A DNA stretch of 64,000 nt from the NCBI RefSeq assembly GCF_900110265.1, contig NZ_FODB01000003.1:1-64000 (forward strand), read 5' to 3'. Positions 41,944 to 47,911 of the stretch are shown here, one piece after another. Position numbers and translations under genes: made by a program. The notes under the pieces were generated by a model. The model saw nothing but the letters and a program-made list of their open reading frames with translations. It searched no databases and was not told the origin of the DNA. Each line of letters starts with the position of its first letter. Positions within the stretch are counted from its first letter, which is position 1. The stretch is from Vreelandella aquamarina. GTDB lineage: Bacteria > Pseudomonadota > Gammaproteobacteria > Pseudomonadales > Halomonadaceae.

Positions 41944-42846
41944 CTATAAAATCGCCGCCAGCGCTTGCTTCAGCGTCGGGTATTGGAAATGAAAGCCTGC
42001 CTCGCTCAAGCGTGCCGGGCGCATATCCGCACCGGTAAGCAGCAGTTGCGACATCTCCCCAAAGCCCGCTTTCAGCACAAAAGCGGGCACCGGAAACATG
42101 GCCGGACGATGTAACTGCTTAGCCAGCGTTTGGGTAAATTCAGCGTTGGTCACTGGGTGGGGCGCGCTGCCGTTAAAGGCACCTGACAAGGTCGGCTCGT
42201 TGATCAGAAACATAATCGCCGCTACCAAGTCATCCCGGTGAATCCAGGGCATAAACTGTGTGCCATCGCCAAATCGCCCGCCTAATCCCAGCTTGAACGG
42301 TGGCAGCATTTTCTGCAGCGTACCGCCTCCCGCCTCTAGCACTAAGCCAATCCGTAAAACTGCTAGCCTAACCCCCATGGCTTCAATCGGTTTTGCCGCG
42401 GCTTCCCATTGGGCGCAGAGCCGATGGGCGAACTCATCATGAGGGGACGTGGATTCATCCACCACTTTGCTGCCCTGATCACCGTAATAGCCCATGGCCG
42501 AACCGCTCACCATCACTTTCGGTAAGGGCTGACCATTGGCCGCCAGCTGCTCACAGAGCGCAATCAGCTGCTGAGTACTTTCCACCCGTGAACGAATCAG
42601 CCGCTCTTTCTGCTCGGCGCTCCAGCGCTTTGCCGCGATGGACTCCCCCGCTAGGTTTACCAACGCATCCGGCGGTGTATCCACAAAGGCTTGGGCACTA
42701 TCACGGATATCGCATGCCTTGGGTAGTTTTCCCCGCACGTCGTGGGGCGTGCGAGATACCACCTGTACATCGTGCCCCTGGGCAATGAGCTGTTGGCAGA
42801 GCCGTTGGCCTACAAAGCCGCTTCCCCCGGTAATTAATACCCGCAT
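41944..42846 (-). CDS. TIGR01777-type SDR-fold epimerase-like protein (YfcH/SDR39U1 family)
   Basis: 300 residues. An N-terminal Rossmann motif ITGGSGFVGQRL binds NAD(P); NLAGESIAAKRW, VSGSAMGYYGDQG and the C-terminal PARLSEAGFHFQYP are marks of the TIGR01777 family. The substrate is unknown. SDR genes of this kind often accompany LitR and photolyase genes, and this one is divergent from that locus across the dyad at 42966-42997. Confidence 0.88.
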   Translation of the reverse strand: MRVLITGGSGFVGQRLCQQLIAQGHDVQVVSRTPHDVRGKLPKACDIRDSAQAFVDTPPDALVNLAGESIAAKRWSAEQKERLIRSRVESTQQLIALCEQLAANGQPLPKVMVSGSAMGYYGDQGSKVVDESTSPHDEFAHRLCAQWEAAAKPIEAMGVRLAVLRIGLVLEAGGGTLQKMLPPFKLGLGGRFGDGTQFMPWIHRDDLVAAIMFLINEPTLSGAFNGSAPHPVTNAEFTQTLAKQLHRPAMFPVPAFVLKAGFGEMSQLLLTGADMRPARLSEAGFHFQYPTLKQALAAIL

Positions 42847-42965
42847 GGTGTCACTCCTTTGGCGTTGGACGTCACTTGCGCCAGCGTAGTCGCCACTACT
42901 GATCCATCAGATGGTTGATATCAAAAAGTGGTCACCGCACCGTCGCGCACGTTGCATAGCGCTTA

Positions 42966-42997
42966 ATTGTACAATATTTATACATAACTGCTACAAT
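42966..42997. promoter_or_regulatory. Symmetric divergent promoter/operator of the LitR locus
   Basis: ATTGTA (42966-42971) and TACAAT (42992-42997) form a perfect inverted repeat 20 bp apart. Read either way it gives TTGTA(C/G), 19 bp, then TACAAT: a -35/-10 pair with the long spacer typical of MerR-family promoters. One direction faces the SDR gene, the other the oxidoreductase remnant. LitR control is an inference. Confidence 0.6.
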
Positions 42998-43033
42998 AAA
43001 TTTAGTTGAGCACTACCTTACTCGCGAGGATTT

Positions 43034-43300
43034 ATGGCTGAACCGGCAAGTGTAACCTTCACTCCCTCCACCGCGCCCACCTTTGCGAGCAAAGTTGCCG
43101 ACTGAACAGTATGGCCACTTCGATCATGTGGTGATCAGCGCGCCGCCTCCCCAGGCAAAAGCGCTGCGGGCAGTCAGTCATTCTTATACAGCGAGCGCGG
43201 TTTATGGCTATACGGCGGCAGCTTTCGTGGCAGCCGCGTGGAGGATGCATGGCTCTCCGATGACGAGTTGGGAGAGGCATTATTAGGCCGGTCGGTCTAA
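43034..43300 (+). pseudogene. Remnant of an FAD-dependent (renalase-like) oxidoreductase
   Basis: A good GAGGA site precedes ATG 43034, but the frame stops after 23 codons. Downstream, one frame reads HFDHVVISAPPPQAKAL and another reads ERGLWLYGGSFRGSRVEDA followed by WLSDDELGEALLG and a stop at 43298. These match the strand and C-terminal FAD-contact regions (typically FD.VV.A.PAPQ and GDW..GGRVEGAWLSG) of oxidoreductases found beside photolyase genes. Most of the gene, including the GxGxxG motif, is deleted and the remainder is frameshifted. Confidence 0.5.
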
Positions 43301-43343
43301 TGGAAGCTAACGCGAGGCTACACCCAAAGGGACACAGCAAAGG

Positions 43344-43384
43344 TTGTACCTAGTAGCCACAAGTTGTACAAAGGTGCCTATAAT
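43344..43384 (+). promoter_or_regulatory. Promoter with TTGTAC repeats upstream of the LitR-like gene
   Basis: TTGTAC at 43344 and TTGTACAA at 43364 are exactly 20 bp apart, in direct orientation, and a perfect TATAAT follows at 43379-43384. The -35 position is poor. The second repeat shares its TTGTACAA core with the dyad at 42967. Autoregulation is a reasonable guess. Confidence 0.5.
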
Positions 43385-43527
43385 AGCGTGACCCTATCTA
43401 ACCGATTAGGTGCTATTCAGCAAACCGCTACACGACTAAGTGGCCTAGCGCCGAACTGGCGCGACAACACGGCCACCGCAATTATTGACAGACCCCTGCA
43501 GCGCTTGTTGCAGGCAACCAAGAGGCA

Positions 43528-44457
43528 ATGGCGCCCATGAGCAACAAGGCGACCCACCCACCCGATACCCCGCTCTATCCGATTCGGGAAGTTTCCCGCT
43601 TAACGGGTGTGAACTCGGTCACCCTGCGCGCCTGGGAGCGACGCTACGGATTAATTCGCCCACAGCGGACCCCTAAGGGTCACCGGCTCTATGCCCAGGA
43701 CGATATCAGCCGTATTGAACGCATTCTCCAGTGGCTCAACCGAGGCGTGCCGGTCAGCCAGGTCGCCGACCTGCTTGACCAGCCCGAAACGGTAGAGGCC
43801 CCCGCCCCAGATGCCGGGGACTGGTCTAGCCAGCGCCAGCAGCTTCTGGCGGTCATTGAAGCCGTCGACCTTCCCAAGCTGGAAGCGCTCTACCATCAAA
43901 GCCTAGCGCTCTATCCGCTAAGCGTGGCGATTAACGAGCTGTGGCAGCCTGTCATTCTGACCCTAGAAGCTAAATGGGCGGCGCAGCCAGATGATTTGGT
44001 GCGCCGCACCTTTGAGGCCTTTTTGCGTAGTCAGGTGGGTACTCGCCTGCACTACGCCAACCAGGCAACCCGCGGCCCGCTGATTCTGCTCAGCGCCATG
44101 CCCGACGATCCTGGCCCGCTGTGGGTACTGATGAGTGCACTGATGGCCAGCGAGCAGGGCTACCGAGTCCAGCTGTTTGATCATTCGCTGGCACTCGAAG
44201 ACCTTGCACAAGCGGTGTCTCGCCTGCACTCCTCAATGGTTCTGCTCTCTAGCGGCCAGCGGGAATGCGACAACTATATTCGCGTAGCGCTACCCAAAGC
44301 CGCTGAAGCGCTGGGCGTGCCTATCGGCGTATGCGGTGAAGTCGCGCGCCTGCGTGAGAACGATCTGCGCGATGGTCCTGTTCATATGCTGGGCGACGAT
44401 CTACCCCAGGCGATCGCCCGGCTACGCCCTCTTCTGCGTGAATCAGGCATTCTTTAA
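43528..44457 (+). CDS. MerR-family LitR/CarH-like transcriptional regulator without B12 signature
   Basis: 309 residues. The winged-helix MerR domain (about 16-85) has YPIREVSRLTGVNSVTLRA and WERRYGL. The C-terminal half resembles the helical plus Rossmann cobalamin-binding region of LitR/CarH, but where the ExHxxG B12-ligand motif is expected it reads MPDDPGPLWVLMSAL, so the axial histidine is missing. This is the pattern of class II LitR proteins, which I recall rely on partner LOV photosensors. Located 33 bp before phrB, likely its regulator. Confidence 0.85.
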   Translation: MAPMSNKATHPPDTPLYPIREVSRLTGVNSVTLRAWERRYGLIRPQRTPKGHRLYAQDDISRIERILQWLNRGVPVSQVADLLDQPETVEAPAPDAGDWSSQRQQLLAVIEAVDLPKLEALYHQSLALYPLSVAINELWQPVILTLEAKWAAQPDDLVRRTFEAFLRSQVGTRLHYANQATRGPLILLSAMPDDPGPLWVLMSALMASEQGYRVQLFDHSLALEDLAQAVSRLHSSMVLLSSGQRECDNYIRVALPKAAEALGVPIGVCGEVARLRENDLRDGPVHMLGDDLPQAIARLRPLLRESGIL

Positions 44458-44490: not shown

Positions 44491-45903
44491 ATGAACCTGC
44501 AGCTTGTTTGGTTTCGCAGCGATCTACGTATTCATGACAATTCCGCACTCGCCGCCGCTGCCGCCAAAGGGCCGGTAGTGGCGGTTTTTTTGCGTAGCAT
44601 TGAGCAGTGGCGTGACCACGGCCACGGCGCAAATAAGCTCGATTTCTGGGCGCGTGGTGTTAGCGCGCTTAAGGCCTCGCTCAATGGCTTGAATATTCCG
44701 CTGTTGCATCGCGATATTGGGCGTTTCGACGACGCCCCCAAGGCGCTTTTAGAGGTTGCCCGCGAACATGGCATCAAGCAGCTCCACTTCAATTATGAGT
44801 ATCCGCTGAACGAGCAGCGCCGCGACCAGTCGGTACTGGAGGCTTTTCAGCAGGTCGGTATTACCGCCCAAGGCCATCACGACGCGGTGGCGTTTGCCCC
44901 CGGTACCTTGCTGACAGGCAAAGGCGACTACTACGGCGTCTTCACCCCGTTTTCAAAAGCGTGGCACAAGCAAGTTACCGCCGAGCAGTTAGCCCTGCGC
45001 GACACGCCCAGCGCGCAGTCACCGCTAGCCATTGACAGTGATCCATTACCAGCACTGCCAACGCTAGAGGATGAGCCGCTGGATGGGCGTCTCTGGCCTG
45101 CGGGTGAAAATACTGCCAGCGATAACCTTGAGCGCTTTTTACGCTTTCGGGGGCGTCACTATAAAGATCAGCGTGACTTTCCTAAGGTGCGCGGCACGAG
45201 CGAGCTTTCGCCCTACTTAGCGCTGGGCGTTATTTCCCACCGCCAGTGCCTGCAAGCGGTCATGAGCGAAAATGGCGGGCACCTTGCCGATGGCGATGCA
45301 GGCCTTACCACCTGGGTAAACGAACTCATCTGGCGCGAGTTTTATCAGCATGTCGCGGTCGGCTTTCCTCAGGTATGCCGCTACCAGCCGTTTCAAGCGC
45401 ACACCAAGCAGTTGCAATGGCGGGATGACGACGAAGGGTTTGCCGCCTGGTGCGAAGGCCGCACCGGTTATCCGATTGTGGATGCCGCCATGCGCCAGCT
45501 AGTAACGACCGGCTGGATGCACAATCGTCTGCGAATGATTACGGCCATGTTTCTCAGCAAGCATCTGCTGATTGACTGGCGGCGGGGCGAAGCCTTTTTT
45601 ATGCGCCACTTGGTCGATGGCGAGTTTTGCGCCAATAACGGCGGCTGGCAGTGGGCAGCCTCAACGGGTACCGATGCGGCACCTTACTTCCGCATTTTCA
45701 ACCCCACGACCCAATCCACGCGCTTCGACCCAGGCGGCGAATTTATTGCTCAGTGGCTACCCGAGCTCAAGACGTTGCCTGCCAAAGCGCGCCATGCGCC
45801 GCCTCAGGACATGCTCAACCCGATTGACTACCCAGCGCCCATCGTTGACCACAAAGCGGCTCGCCAGCGGGCGCTGGATGCCTTCAAAGCGCTCTCCAAA
45901 TAA
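44491..45903 (+). CDS. phrB: Deoxyribodipyrimidine photolyase (CPD class I)
   Basis: 470 residues. Blue-light enzyme that splits cyclobutane pyrimidine dimers using FADH-. The N-terminal antenna domain starts LVWFRSDLRIHDNSAL; the FAD domain contains GRTGYPIVDAAMRQL, GWMHNRLRM and NNGGWQWAASTGTDAAPYF. AAGGA precedes the ATG. It follows the LitR-like regulator in the same direction. Confidence 0.97.
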   Translation: MNLQLVWFRSDLRIHDNSALAAAAAKGPVVAVFLRSIEQWRDHGHGANKLDFWARGVSALKASLNGLNIPLLHRDIGRFDDAPKALLEVAREHGIKQLHFNYEYPLNEQRRDQSVLEAFQQVGITAQGHHDAVAFAPGTLLTGKGDYYGVFTPFSKAWHKQVTAEQLALRDTPSAQSPLAIDSDPLPALPTLEDEPLDGRLWPAGENTASDNLERFLRFRGRHYKDQRDFPKVRGTSELSPYLALGVISHRQCLQAVMSENGGHLADGDAGLTTWVNELIWREFYQHVAVGFPQVCRYQPFQAHTKQLQWRDDDEGFAAWCEGRTGYPIVDAAMRQLVTTGWMHNRLRMITAMFLSKHLLIDWRRGEAFFMRHLVDGEFCANNGGWQWAASTGTDAAPYFRIFNPTTQSTRFDPGGEFIAQWLPELKTLPAKARHAPPQDMLNPIDYPAPIVDHKAARQRALDAFKALSK

Positions 45904-46072: not shown

Positions 46073-47911
46073 TTAATATGCGCCTTCTGCCTGCGTTAGC
46101 GGTGCCCAGCGCTGCTCAAGCTCGGCGGCGGGCATCGGTTTAGCAAAGTAAAATCCTTGTACCAGGGTGCAGCCTGCTTCTACCAGGAACTGACACTGGG
46201 CCTGGGTTTCGACTCCTTCGGCGATCACTTCCAGCCCCATGCCTTTTGCCATGGCCAGTACCGCTGTAACAATCGCGGCATCTGCTTGGTCGTTGGGCAA
46301 CTCGCTAATAAAAGCGCGATCTAATTTAATTTTATCTACTGGTAGCCGCTTCAAATATCCCAGCGACGAGTAGCCGGTGCCAAAGTCGTCAATAGCGATT
46401 GAGTAGCCAAGCTCTCTTAGTACCTGCAGACGTGGCCCCATGTCCCCTGCTCGTTCGTCTAGTAACACCGATTCGGTCAGCTCCAAACCAAGTTGTGACG
46501 GCTCTAACTGGTAACGCTCAAGACAGGTGGCAAGCTGGGTTTCTAGATCGCCCTGAAAGAGCTGAAGGGCAGAGATATTGACCCAAACAGTGGTCTTCGG
46601 CATGCCGCTATTTTGCCAATGCGCTTGCTGAGCACAGGCCTTTTCGATCACCCAACTGCCTAACTCTGCCATCAAGCCGTGACGCTCGGCCAGGGGAATA
46701 AACTCTCCCGGCGATATCATGCCACCTTTGGGGTGACGCCAGCGCAGCAGTGCTTCCATACCTACCAACTCACCGCTACCGGGATGGTGTTGGGTTTGGT
46801 AGTGAAGCTCTAACTGGTCACCGGAGATCAGCGCGGCACGCAGGTCGCTGACTAATGCTAATTGGGGATTATCCTGTTTATCCAGCGCGGGGCAAAACCG
46901 CAGGCTGTGGTTGCGACCCAGCCGCTTGGCGCTGTAAAGCGCTGACTCTAAACGCTGAAACAGCACGCTGGAATCTTGACCATCTTCCGGCGCACGGCAG
47001 CTACCAATGGTGAGGCCTAATCGTAGCGACTGTTCATTAATCTCGAAGGGGCGGCACATATGGTCGCGCAGATTCCCTAGCCACTTGTCGTGGTCATCAA
47101 AGGTGGTGGTGCGAATCACCATAAACTCATCACCACCCAGCCGCCCCACTACGCTTCCCGCCATATAGCTGGTGAGCCGCTGGGCAAATCGAGCCAGCAG
47201 CCGGTCGCCCTGCTCAACGCCTAAGCTATCGTTAACCGACTTAAGTCCGTCAATATCAATCAACGCCATATCCAAGCTTTCACCTGCACGCAGGTGGCGC
47301 AGCCTGGACGCCATTAAGTCATGCAAGCGACGCCGGTTAGGTAGGCCTGTTAGCGGATCTTCATAGCCGATACGCCTTAAATCGTTCTCACGAGCTTTTT
47401 GTGCCGAAATATCGGAGAACCAGCTGATAAAGTGGGTGATTTTGCCTCGCTTGTCGGTGACGGCACGCACTTTGAGCCATTCAGGGTACTCATCGCCATG
47501 TTTGCGACGGTTCCACATTTCGCCTTCCCACCGCCCAGTGGCTTTTAGGGTGCTCCAAAAGTTTTCATAAAACGCTTTGTCATGGCGCTGAGCCGCCAGG
47601 GTGTCTAGTTTTCGGCCTATCATCTCTTGGCTTTCATAACCGGTAATTTCGGTAAACGCCGGATTCACCGCTAGCACACGGTTTTGGACATCACTAATGA
47701 CCACCGCATCACCAGACAACCCCAACGCATCCTGTGAAAGGCGCAGGCGCAGACGCTGCTGACGCACTTGGTTCCAAGCATCCCACAAGCCTAAAGTAAC
47801 GAAGCTAGCCGCGACCATACGCAGCGCCGCACCGGGGATCCACACGCAGGCAGGTAGCGCCATCAGCGCCACCCATACCAACGGGCGATTAAGAGAGACA
47901 GGCAGCCACAT
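46073..47911 (-). CDS. PAS-GGDEF-EAL cyclic-di-GMP signalling protein
   Basis: 612 residues. Two short hydrophobic segments (about 9-45) probably anchor it in the inner membrane. A PAS domain (about 58-172) with TEITGYESQEMIGRKL follows, then GGDEF (about 180-340; motif GGDEF at 259-263) and EAL (about 355-605; E386-A-L). Both catalytic signatures are intact, and DDFGTGYSSLGYLKRLPVDK is present. No RxxD inhibitory site precedes GGDEF. It could make or break c-di-GMP; the net activity cannot be read from sequence. Confidence 0.93.
   Translation of the reverse strand: MWLPVSLNRPLVWVALMALPACVWIPGAALRMVAASFVTLGLWDAWNQVRQQRLRLRLSQDALGLSGDAVVISDVQNRVLAVNPAFTEITGYESQEMIGRKLDTLAAQRHDKAFYENFWSTLKATGRWEGEMWNRRKHGDEYPEWLKVRAVTDKRGKITHFISWFSDISAQKARENDLRRIGYEDPLTGLPNRRRLHDLMASRLRHLRAGESLDMALIDIDGLKSVNDSLGVEQGDRLLARFAQRLTSYMAGSVVGRLGGDEFMVIRTTTFDDHDKWLGNLRDHMCRPFEINEQSLRLGLTIGSCRAPEDGQDSSVLFQRLESALYSAKRLGRNHSLRFCPALDKQDNPQLALVSDLRAALISGDQLELHYQTQHHPGSGELVGMEALLRWRHPKGGMISPGEFIPLAERHGLMAELGSWVIEKACAQQAHWQNSGMPKTTVWVNISALQLFQGDLETQLATCLERYQLEPSQLGLELTESVLLDERAGDMGPRLQVLRELGYSIAIDDFGTGYSSLGYLKRLPVDKIKLDRAFISELPNDQADAAIVTAVLAMAKGMGLEVIAEGVETQAQCQFLVEAGCTLVQGFYFAKPMPAAELEQRWAPLTQAEGAY

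Follow-up and report, generated by a model that had tools for sequence, protein, structure and literature searches.

Genes and features between the oxidoreductase and photolyase genes

The DNA analysed here is a 64,000-nucleotide stretch from Vreelandella aquamarina (the window). It carries litR (43528–44457, plus strand), encoding a 309-aa MerR-type regulator of the LitR/CarH family that lacks the cobalamin-ligand histidines. Downstream lies phrB (44491–45903, plus strand), for a deoxyribodipyrimidine photolyase of 470 aa (NF007955 at 557 bits, cut-off 506; also matched by Pfam). Upstream is a divergent gene for a TIGR01777 (YfcH-like) oxidoreductase (41944–42846, minus strand; TIGR01777 at 339 bits, cut-off 207), separated from litR by a gap of 681 bases. 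A PAS-GGDEF-EAL protein is encoded directly past phrB, in convergent orientation (46073–47911, minus strand).

The TIGR01777 gene, litR and phrB stand together in all 35 of the same-genus loci compared (L034–L068). An orthologue of LitR (at least 71% identical) was found in 36 of 37 genus genomes, own genome included; among the 47 named loci, the LitR of V. lionensis is the most similar, at 97% identity over the best segment.

The gap also holds the remnant of a decayed FAD/amine-oxidase-like gene (43034–43301, plus strand), with a 23-codon leader frame at its start. Pieces of the remnant match residues 165–186 and 294–354 of an intact 354-aa FAD/amine-oxidase-like relative. This gene is absent or shortened at some of the L034–L068 loci, and several further species have it in shortened or interrupted form or not at all. 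Both the window and V. lionensis (L124) show a decayed copy with large internal losses. Despite this decay, the neighbouring 32-bp element described below, P1, is intact in both. It may be that P1 now serves litR-phrB, or that it serves the divergent gene, or that there has been little time for it to decay.

The regulator

LitR has an N-terminal MerR winged helix (PF13411, 63.6 bits) and aligns to Thermus CarH over residues 8–242 (E = 1.7e-23); the DNA-reading stretch, LRxWERRYG...RTPxGHRLY, is very similar in the two proteins. An AlphaFold model of LitR built with 23 sequences (pLDDT 84, pTM 0.67) gave as its top PDB matches the CarH chains 5c8f, 5c8e (DNA-bound) and 5c8d. Its cobalamin domain superposed on that of CarH with an rmsd of about 3–5 Å. 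Full-length superpositions were loose, at 12–16 Å, and the domain arrangement is not fixed by the model. As modelled, LitR has the predicted C-terminal helical bundle and Rossmann-like domain of CarH. PF02310 scored below its cut-off (21.7 vs 32.1 bits). The best NCBIfam models were CarH (NF052513, 104 bits, cut-off 400) and, second, E. coli-type MlrA (96 bits); neither score came near the cut-off of its model.

The cobalamin ligands of CarH are lost. The histidine of the CarH stretch ERHEIG, which we take to be the second cobalamin ligand, is aligned to G196 of LitR, a glycine invariant in the 23 sequences. The EH of Wx9EH, described as the cobalamin-ligand motif of CarH (PMC8156234), is aligned to R160-T161. 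With these ligand histidines absent, LitR is not a class I regulator, that is, a cobalamin photoreceptor. Nor can it be filed as class II, since the operator of the Pseudomonas class II regulators was looked for and not found (see below).

A sharply bounded element between the divergent genes

P1 (42966–42997, without strand assignment), which we read as a putative operator-promoter element, opens with ATTGTA (42966–42971) and closes with TACAAT (42992–42997). An earlier note, drawn from this DNA by a model reading only the letters, had described this dyad as having 19-bp spacing on both strands. Direct reading and a pattern search bear this out: the plus strand has TTGTAC (42967–42972)-N19-TACAAT (42992–42997), and the minus strand TTGTAG (42996–42991)-N19-TACAAT (42971–42966). 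TTGTAN-N(18–20)-TACAAT has two matches in the window, both of them P1, vs 0.01 expected. With spacers of 17–21 over the whole genome (3,497,205 bases), there were three matches, two being P1, and the backward control also gave three; the match at C75:6944 has a spacing other than that of P1. The one-strand pattern is therefore at chance level genome-wide, and its coincidence on two strands occurs in this 3.5-Mb genome at P1 only. TTGTAC by itself was no commoner in the window than chance (16 found vs 18.8 expected). The inner palindrome, ATTGTACAAT, is perfect in just 2/82 intergenic stretches, those of the window and of V. lionensis (L124).

Conservation was measured across 85 loci: the window, 37 loci (L034–L070) and 47 loci (L079–L125), with species overlap between the latter two sets. 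L070 (which had no TIGR01777 match), L118 and L121 had no usable intergenic stretch, leaving 82; the outgroup L069 was set aside, leaving 81 rows for the P1 stack, the repeat-core and the P2 comparisons. Identical segments were collapsed. The P1 stack held 43 unique segments with at least 23/32 identity to the consensus, 27 of the 81 rows falling below that cut-off. Segments of the P1 stack, and 15 divergent elements considered below, were picked by similarity to consensus, and a set of 47 unique elements by the repeat core described below, so that conservation values are inflated, comparisons between columns less so. The 47 core elements include L052, L053, L107 and L108, which have a similarity of 11–12 of 32 and are possibly chance cores.

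In the 43 unique segments strong conservation starts at 42966 and stops at 42997, the three bases leftward showing an A/T preference only. The best-conserved part is the centre, TATAC (42979–42983), with T42979, T42981, A42982 and C42983 in 43/43 and A42980 in 42/43. In a set of 15 elements, any two of which differ at no fewer than 4 of the 32 bases, TATAC was kept in 15/15, the other spacer columns averaging 0.66. A mirrored promoter pair with free spacers does not predict such a centre. The sharp edges and the conserved spacer centre also make it very improbable that P1 is a chance resemblance or a plain promoter without a regulator, despite two results that would fit that explanation: the genome-wide frequency of the one-strand pattern, about that of the backward control, and a promoter scan whose yield was not above that of shuffles (1 found vs 0.5 expected).

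The P1 pattern, with at most one mismatch, was present at the litR locus in 22/37 genus genomes, with one site in the own genome; a version one base shorter, which served as an unplanned control, was present there in 0/37. The repeat core was lacking from 16/81 rows. Six of these have an intact FAD gene (L046, L049, L050, L054, L101 and L114) and ten have no FAD frame; both sets count against reading P1 as an operator. The group scored as having no FAD frame of 330 codons includes four full-length interrupted genes (L086, L091, L117 and L123).

Tandem repeats resembling the CarH operator

The operators of CarH are described as tandem 11-bp repeats, nAnnTnnACAn, with three copies in Thermus, four copies in Bacillus and an overlap with the -35 or the -10 (PMC9304148, PMC8156234). 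P1 can be divided in the same way on the plus strand. The first repeat, DR1, is TAATTGTACAA (42964–42974). The second, DR2, is TATTTATACAT (42975–42985) and contains the best-conserved bases (42979–42983, at 42–43/43). The third, dr3, is AACTGCTACAA (42986–42996) and is imperfect, with G for the T of TnnACA. This is the sole mismatch against three strict repeats: when ANNTNNACA is laid down three times at 11 bp, 14/15 specified bases fit at 42965–42995.

We treat this strict triple motif as the decisive test, earlier scans having relaxed the T of the third repeat after the site was seen. Allowing at most one mismatch, P1 is the only site in the 3.5-Mb genome; at two mismatches there was one further site, and the backward control had 2. 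By chance the triple-repeat search should yield 0.03 matches in the window. Versions with periods of 10 and 12 bp had 0 matches there, a weak control since just 0.05 and 0.01 were expected. Judged by its sequence, P1 is arranged as a CarH-type operator is, with three tandem 11-bp repeats over a predicted promoter.

Some features of the relatives speak against a CarH-type operator. DR1 reads TnnACG in most of them (base 42973 is G in 36/43 unique segments), the T of dr3 is replaced by G or A, and in most species DR2 alone matches TnnACA perfectly. In distant members, the first repeat has TATACA and the second TGTACG (L066) or TGCACA (L067). Here the T and AC positions are constant and the letters between them vary, which indicates repeats rather than fixed hexamers.

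A second putative operator before litR

The earlier note had also pointed to TTGTAC repeats ahead of the regulator gene, and these are indeed present, at 43344 and 43364. They belong to P2 (43342–43372, plus strand), a putative operator recognised by its conserved bases and its pattern across the genus, with the layout GGTTGTACC-N6-GCnACAAGTTGTACAAA. Across 57 unique segments, conservation is 52–57/57 at every position of GGTTGTACC and ACAAGTTGTACAAA. TTGTAC-N14-TTGTACAA precedes litR exactly in 33/37 genus genomes and with at most one mismatch in 34/37; at the level of sequence, P2 is better conserved than P1. Overlapping P2 is a candidate litR promoter, GCCACA-N17-TATAAT (43356–43384, plus strand), with T43379 in 48/57, A43380 in 42/57 and T43384 in 51/57; it had no match in a consensus scan of 42700–43560. 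A further match to the P2 pattern, on C108, recurs in G026 and G028; since it falls within a reading frame of 204 codons, we take it as chance rather than as a LitR site.

P2 could be the sole LitR site, with P1 bound by a different regulator. The layouts of the two are unlike, an 11-bp tandem in P1 and a 20-bp pair in P2, and P2 is found in more genus genomes (34 vs 22 of 37 at no more than one mismatch). We consider such a division of labour improbable, given that P1 fits the CarH operator at 14/15 positions and is the sole genome site within one mismatch. The only genus genome without litR (G003, which also has no close TIGR01777 homologue; best 26%, E = 2.5e-4) lacks both patterns, P1 and P2. 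This too argues against a separate regulator, but weakly: it is a single case, and the P1 pattern is likewise absent from 14 of the 36 litR-bearing genomes.

Predicted overlapping promoters within P1

On the plus strand, TG stands one base upstream of the -10 hexamer (TGCTACAAT). The result, TGC-TACAAT (42989–42997), is a putative extended -10 of the form TGnTAnnnT, with a predicted start near 43004. Its columns are well kept: T42989 in 41/43, G42990 in 39/43, T42992 in 42/43, A42993 in 43/43 and T42997 in 36/43. G42990 is the position at which dr3 would need T. Operator and promoter would compete for this one base, G serving the extended -10 and T the repeat, and from the alignment the promoter seems to have prevailed here. 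The consensus scan of 42700–43560 returned one promoter-like match, TGTACA-N18-TACAAT with TG; shuffles gave 0.5 on average, so the scan proves nothing alone. It covered spacers of 16–18 only, which placed a 19-bp minus-strand promoter outside its reach.

That minus-strand candidate consists of a -10, TACAAT (42966–42971), and a -35, TTGTAG (42996–42991), at a spacer of 19, with a predicted start near 42959. Its -10 columns are likewise conserved (A42966 41/43, T42970 40/43, A42971 42/43), and A42966 is left free by the repeats. Among the 47 unique elements with the repeat core, TAnnnT is kept in 36/47 on the minus strand, in 35/47 on the plus strand and in 29/47 on both.

The earlier note had proposed that this one element could drive two promoters. 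Part of that is supported: between the divergent genes, P1 forms a conserved regulatory site beside a regulator of the LitR/CarH type, and -10-like hexamers are conserved on both strands. The minus -35 is weak. P1 might instead be a one-way promoter serving the rightward genes, the minus -10 arising incidentally from DR1 and AT-richness, and a separate promoter driving the TIGR01777 gene. This departs from our preferred explanation in a single step, and we hold it to be a serious though less probable account. It would be in keeping with a minus promoter that has no TG extension and whose -35, TTGTAG, matches TTGACA at 3/6, and with a consensus scan that picks the plus promoter only, 19-bp spacers being outside that scan. 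Among unique elements with an intact FAD gene, six retain TAnnnT on the plus strand alone, but five retain it on the minus strand alone, and A42966 would not be expected at 41/43 if only the repeat constrained DR1. Further, L081 and L119 have lost the FAD gene and have a broken plus -10, yet both retain DR1-DR2 and TAnnnT on the minus strand. On these alignments, a divergent minus-strand start is likely but not firm.

The 19-bp spacing

Classical MerR-activated promoters have spacers of 19–20 bp, and P1 is like them in having a MerR-type regulator and 19-bp spacing of its hexamers. LitR might bind within the spacer, twist the DNA and so align TTGTAC and TACAAT on one or both strands, as the earlier note suggested in calling this the long spacer that MerR proteins remodel. 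The exact N19 on both strands, kept in relatives, would suit such activation, and so would the conservation of A42966 (41/43) and T42967 (42/43), which the repeats do not require. MlrA, the second-best NCBIfam match of LitR at 96 bits, is an activator. The activation mechanism at such promoters has been described, and there is a precedent in the MerR-family protein SoxR, reported at a bidirectional promoter of E. coli to activate one direction and block the other (PMC12825309).

We nonetheless judge activation of P1 unlikely and did not retain it as the leading reading. MerR proteins are said to have typically palindromic or pseudopalindromic sites (PMC8156234), and the most conserved columns of P1, TATAC at 42–43/43 in mid-spacer, belong to a direct repeat and break the dyad; by sequence, the spacer does not appear to hold a palindromic regulator site. 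The spacer centre and the ends of the element together make up the three 11-bp CarH-type repeats. The plus promoter needs no MerR-remodelled 19-bp spacer since it has an extended -10, and besides the N19 of both strands the same letters offer an 18-bp alternative on the plus strand, TGTACA-N18-TACAAT. The relatives CarH, CarA and PmlR2 are described as repressors that act by covering the promoter. P1 is thus unlike the classical MerR-activated promoters in its direct rather than inverted repeats, its extended -10 and the repressor character of the regulator's relatives.

A model for light control

Our preferred reading, to which we assign a probability of roughly 0.7, is that in P1 a LitR operator is superimposed on a sigma70 promoter, subject to repression in the dark in both orientations and to release in the light, with P2 acting likewise for litR-phrB. 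DR1, DR2 and dr3 span the plus -35 region into the extended -10, and the minus -10-like hexamer is inside DR1. In the dark, LitR made from the adjacent gene would bind DR1-DR2-dr3 head-to-tail and cover the whole P1 promoter, as we infer from the repressors CarH and PmlR2; such coverage would exclude polymerase in either orientation. Dark repression probably includes the divergent TIGR01777 oxidoreductase gene.

Light, acting through some receptor, would release LitR from P1. Rightward transcription would then yield the FAD oxidoreductase gene and probably litR-phrB in relatives, and the gene remnant and litR-phrB here. Leftward transcription, probably weaker, would enter the TIGR01777 gene. 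Given the extent of the overlap between the two promoters, polymerase would use one at a time. The same dark and light control at P2 would make litR-phrB autoregulated. The 19-bp spacing would be a by-product of two repeat periods, which set TACAAT and TACAAT 22 bp apart, rather than a MerR activation spacer.

This model raises the question of how LitR would sense light, given that its cobalamin ligands are absent and that neither a short LOV nor a BLUF protein was found. BLUF genes were found in none of the 37 genus genomes, so there is no candidate BLUF partner for the light input. The exact LOV motif has a single match in the own genome, in an 809-codon open frame with GGDEF/EAL-like sequence as judged from its translation (contig C73, L073, about 21872); with no stand-alone LOV found there by exact motif, there is no such LOV candidate either. 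Another genome of the genus (G015, L075) has a short LOV-like frame (159 codons) that stands alone, on a different contig from litR.

Several departures from known systems may coincide at this locus: a cobalamin-free LitR acting with neither a short LOV nor a BLUF partner; one three-repeat operator with two mutually exclusive promoters; a receptor new to LitR, for example PhrB or the C73 LOV protein; and an operator layout changed to an 11-bp tandem and a 20-bp pair, from the 18-bp pair seen in Pseudomonas and in three same-order outgroups, while the DNA-reading segment stayed very similar. That all of these hold together we consider doubtful.

Comparison with known light switches and divergent promoters

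The tandem 11-bp nAnnTnnACAn repeats of P1, placed over promoter elements, resemble the CarH operators described from Thermus thermophilus and Bacillus megaterium (PMC9304148, PMC8156234), and LitR shares the fold of CarH and a very similar DNA-reading segment. Unlike those operators, P1 has its third repeat sacrificed to the extended -10 and divergent genes on both sides; unlike CarH, LitR lacks the cobalamin histidines and stands among photolyase and oxidoreductase genes, with no carotenoid genes.

Class II LitR proteins, for which cobalamin binding is not expected, are reported from Pseudomonas mendocina (PmlR2) and P. putida (PplR1); like them, LitR here is a LitR-type regulator with TnTACA boxes over a sigma70 promoter (PMC9758184). 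The same source describes a Pseudomonas LitR homologue that represses by binding over the -35, with repression lifted by light, and a rise of about 27–33 fold in P. mendocina phrB in the light. The pmlR1 region of P. mendocina is also similar in clustering phrB, an FAD oxidoreductase and a short-chain dehydrogenase (PMC9758184). By contrast, the class II operator given there, T(G/A)TACA-N12-TGTA(C/T)A, has 0 matches in the own genome and none at P1 or P2 within 2 mismatches, and no short LOV partner was found by exact motif.

Bidirectional sigma70 promoters of E. coli and Salmonella are described as sharing a -10, with starts 7–25 bp apart (PMC10268837, PMC12825309). P1 is like these in the overlap of opposite strands and in its predicted use by one polymerase at a time, and a MerR-family case, SoxR, is among them. 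Unlike bidirectional promoters as defined by Warman and Grainger, P1 has separate -10s and starts that, predicted from the -10 positions, lie about 45 bp apart (43004 and 42959).

Among the papers searched, none that mentions LitR or CarH with Halomonas or Vreelandella is, by title and abstract, about this locus. As read from the DNA, P1 would extend the LitR/CarH light switch, with an exact operator, to Vreelandella/Halomonas.

A site of the form TGTACA-N12-TGTATA, related to the class II operator pattern, recurs in several genus genomes before a gene that, by its reading frame, is efflux-adaptor-like (L130, about 1474–1497, in G005; L131 in G003); the own genome has no exact match. It was rejected as a LitR site, being present also in the litR-less G003.

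The class II pattern was found 0.1–2.4 kb from the LitR homologue in all three same-order outgroups with a clear homologue (G056, G053 and G038). In G056 (L069, 7640–7740) there are two Pseudomonas-like TnTACA-N12 pairs, the second imperfect. They precede a gene that reads like TudS/DUF523 (RudS-like, as judged solely from its first residues); litR and phrB come next. In G053 (L070, contig C16), a BLUF-domain gene lies about 1.1 kb from the LitR homologue, and the class II pattern is 2.4 kb off; a LitR-BLUF pairing is possible there.
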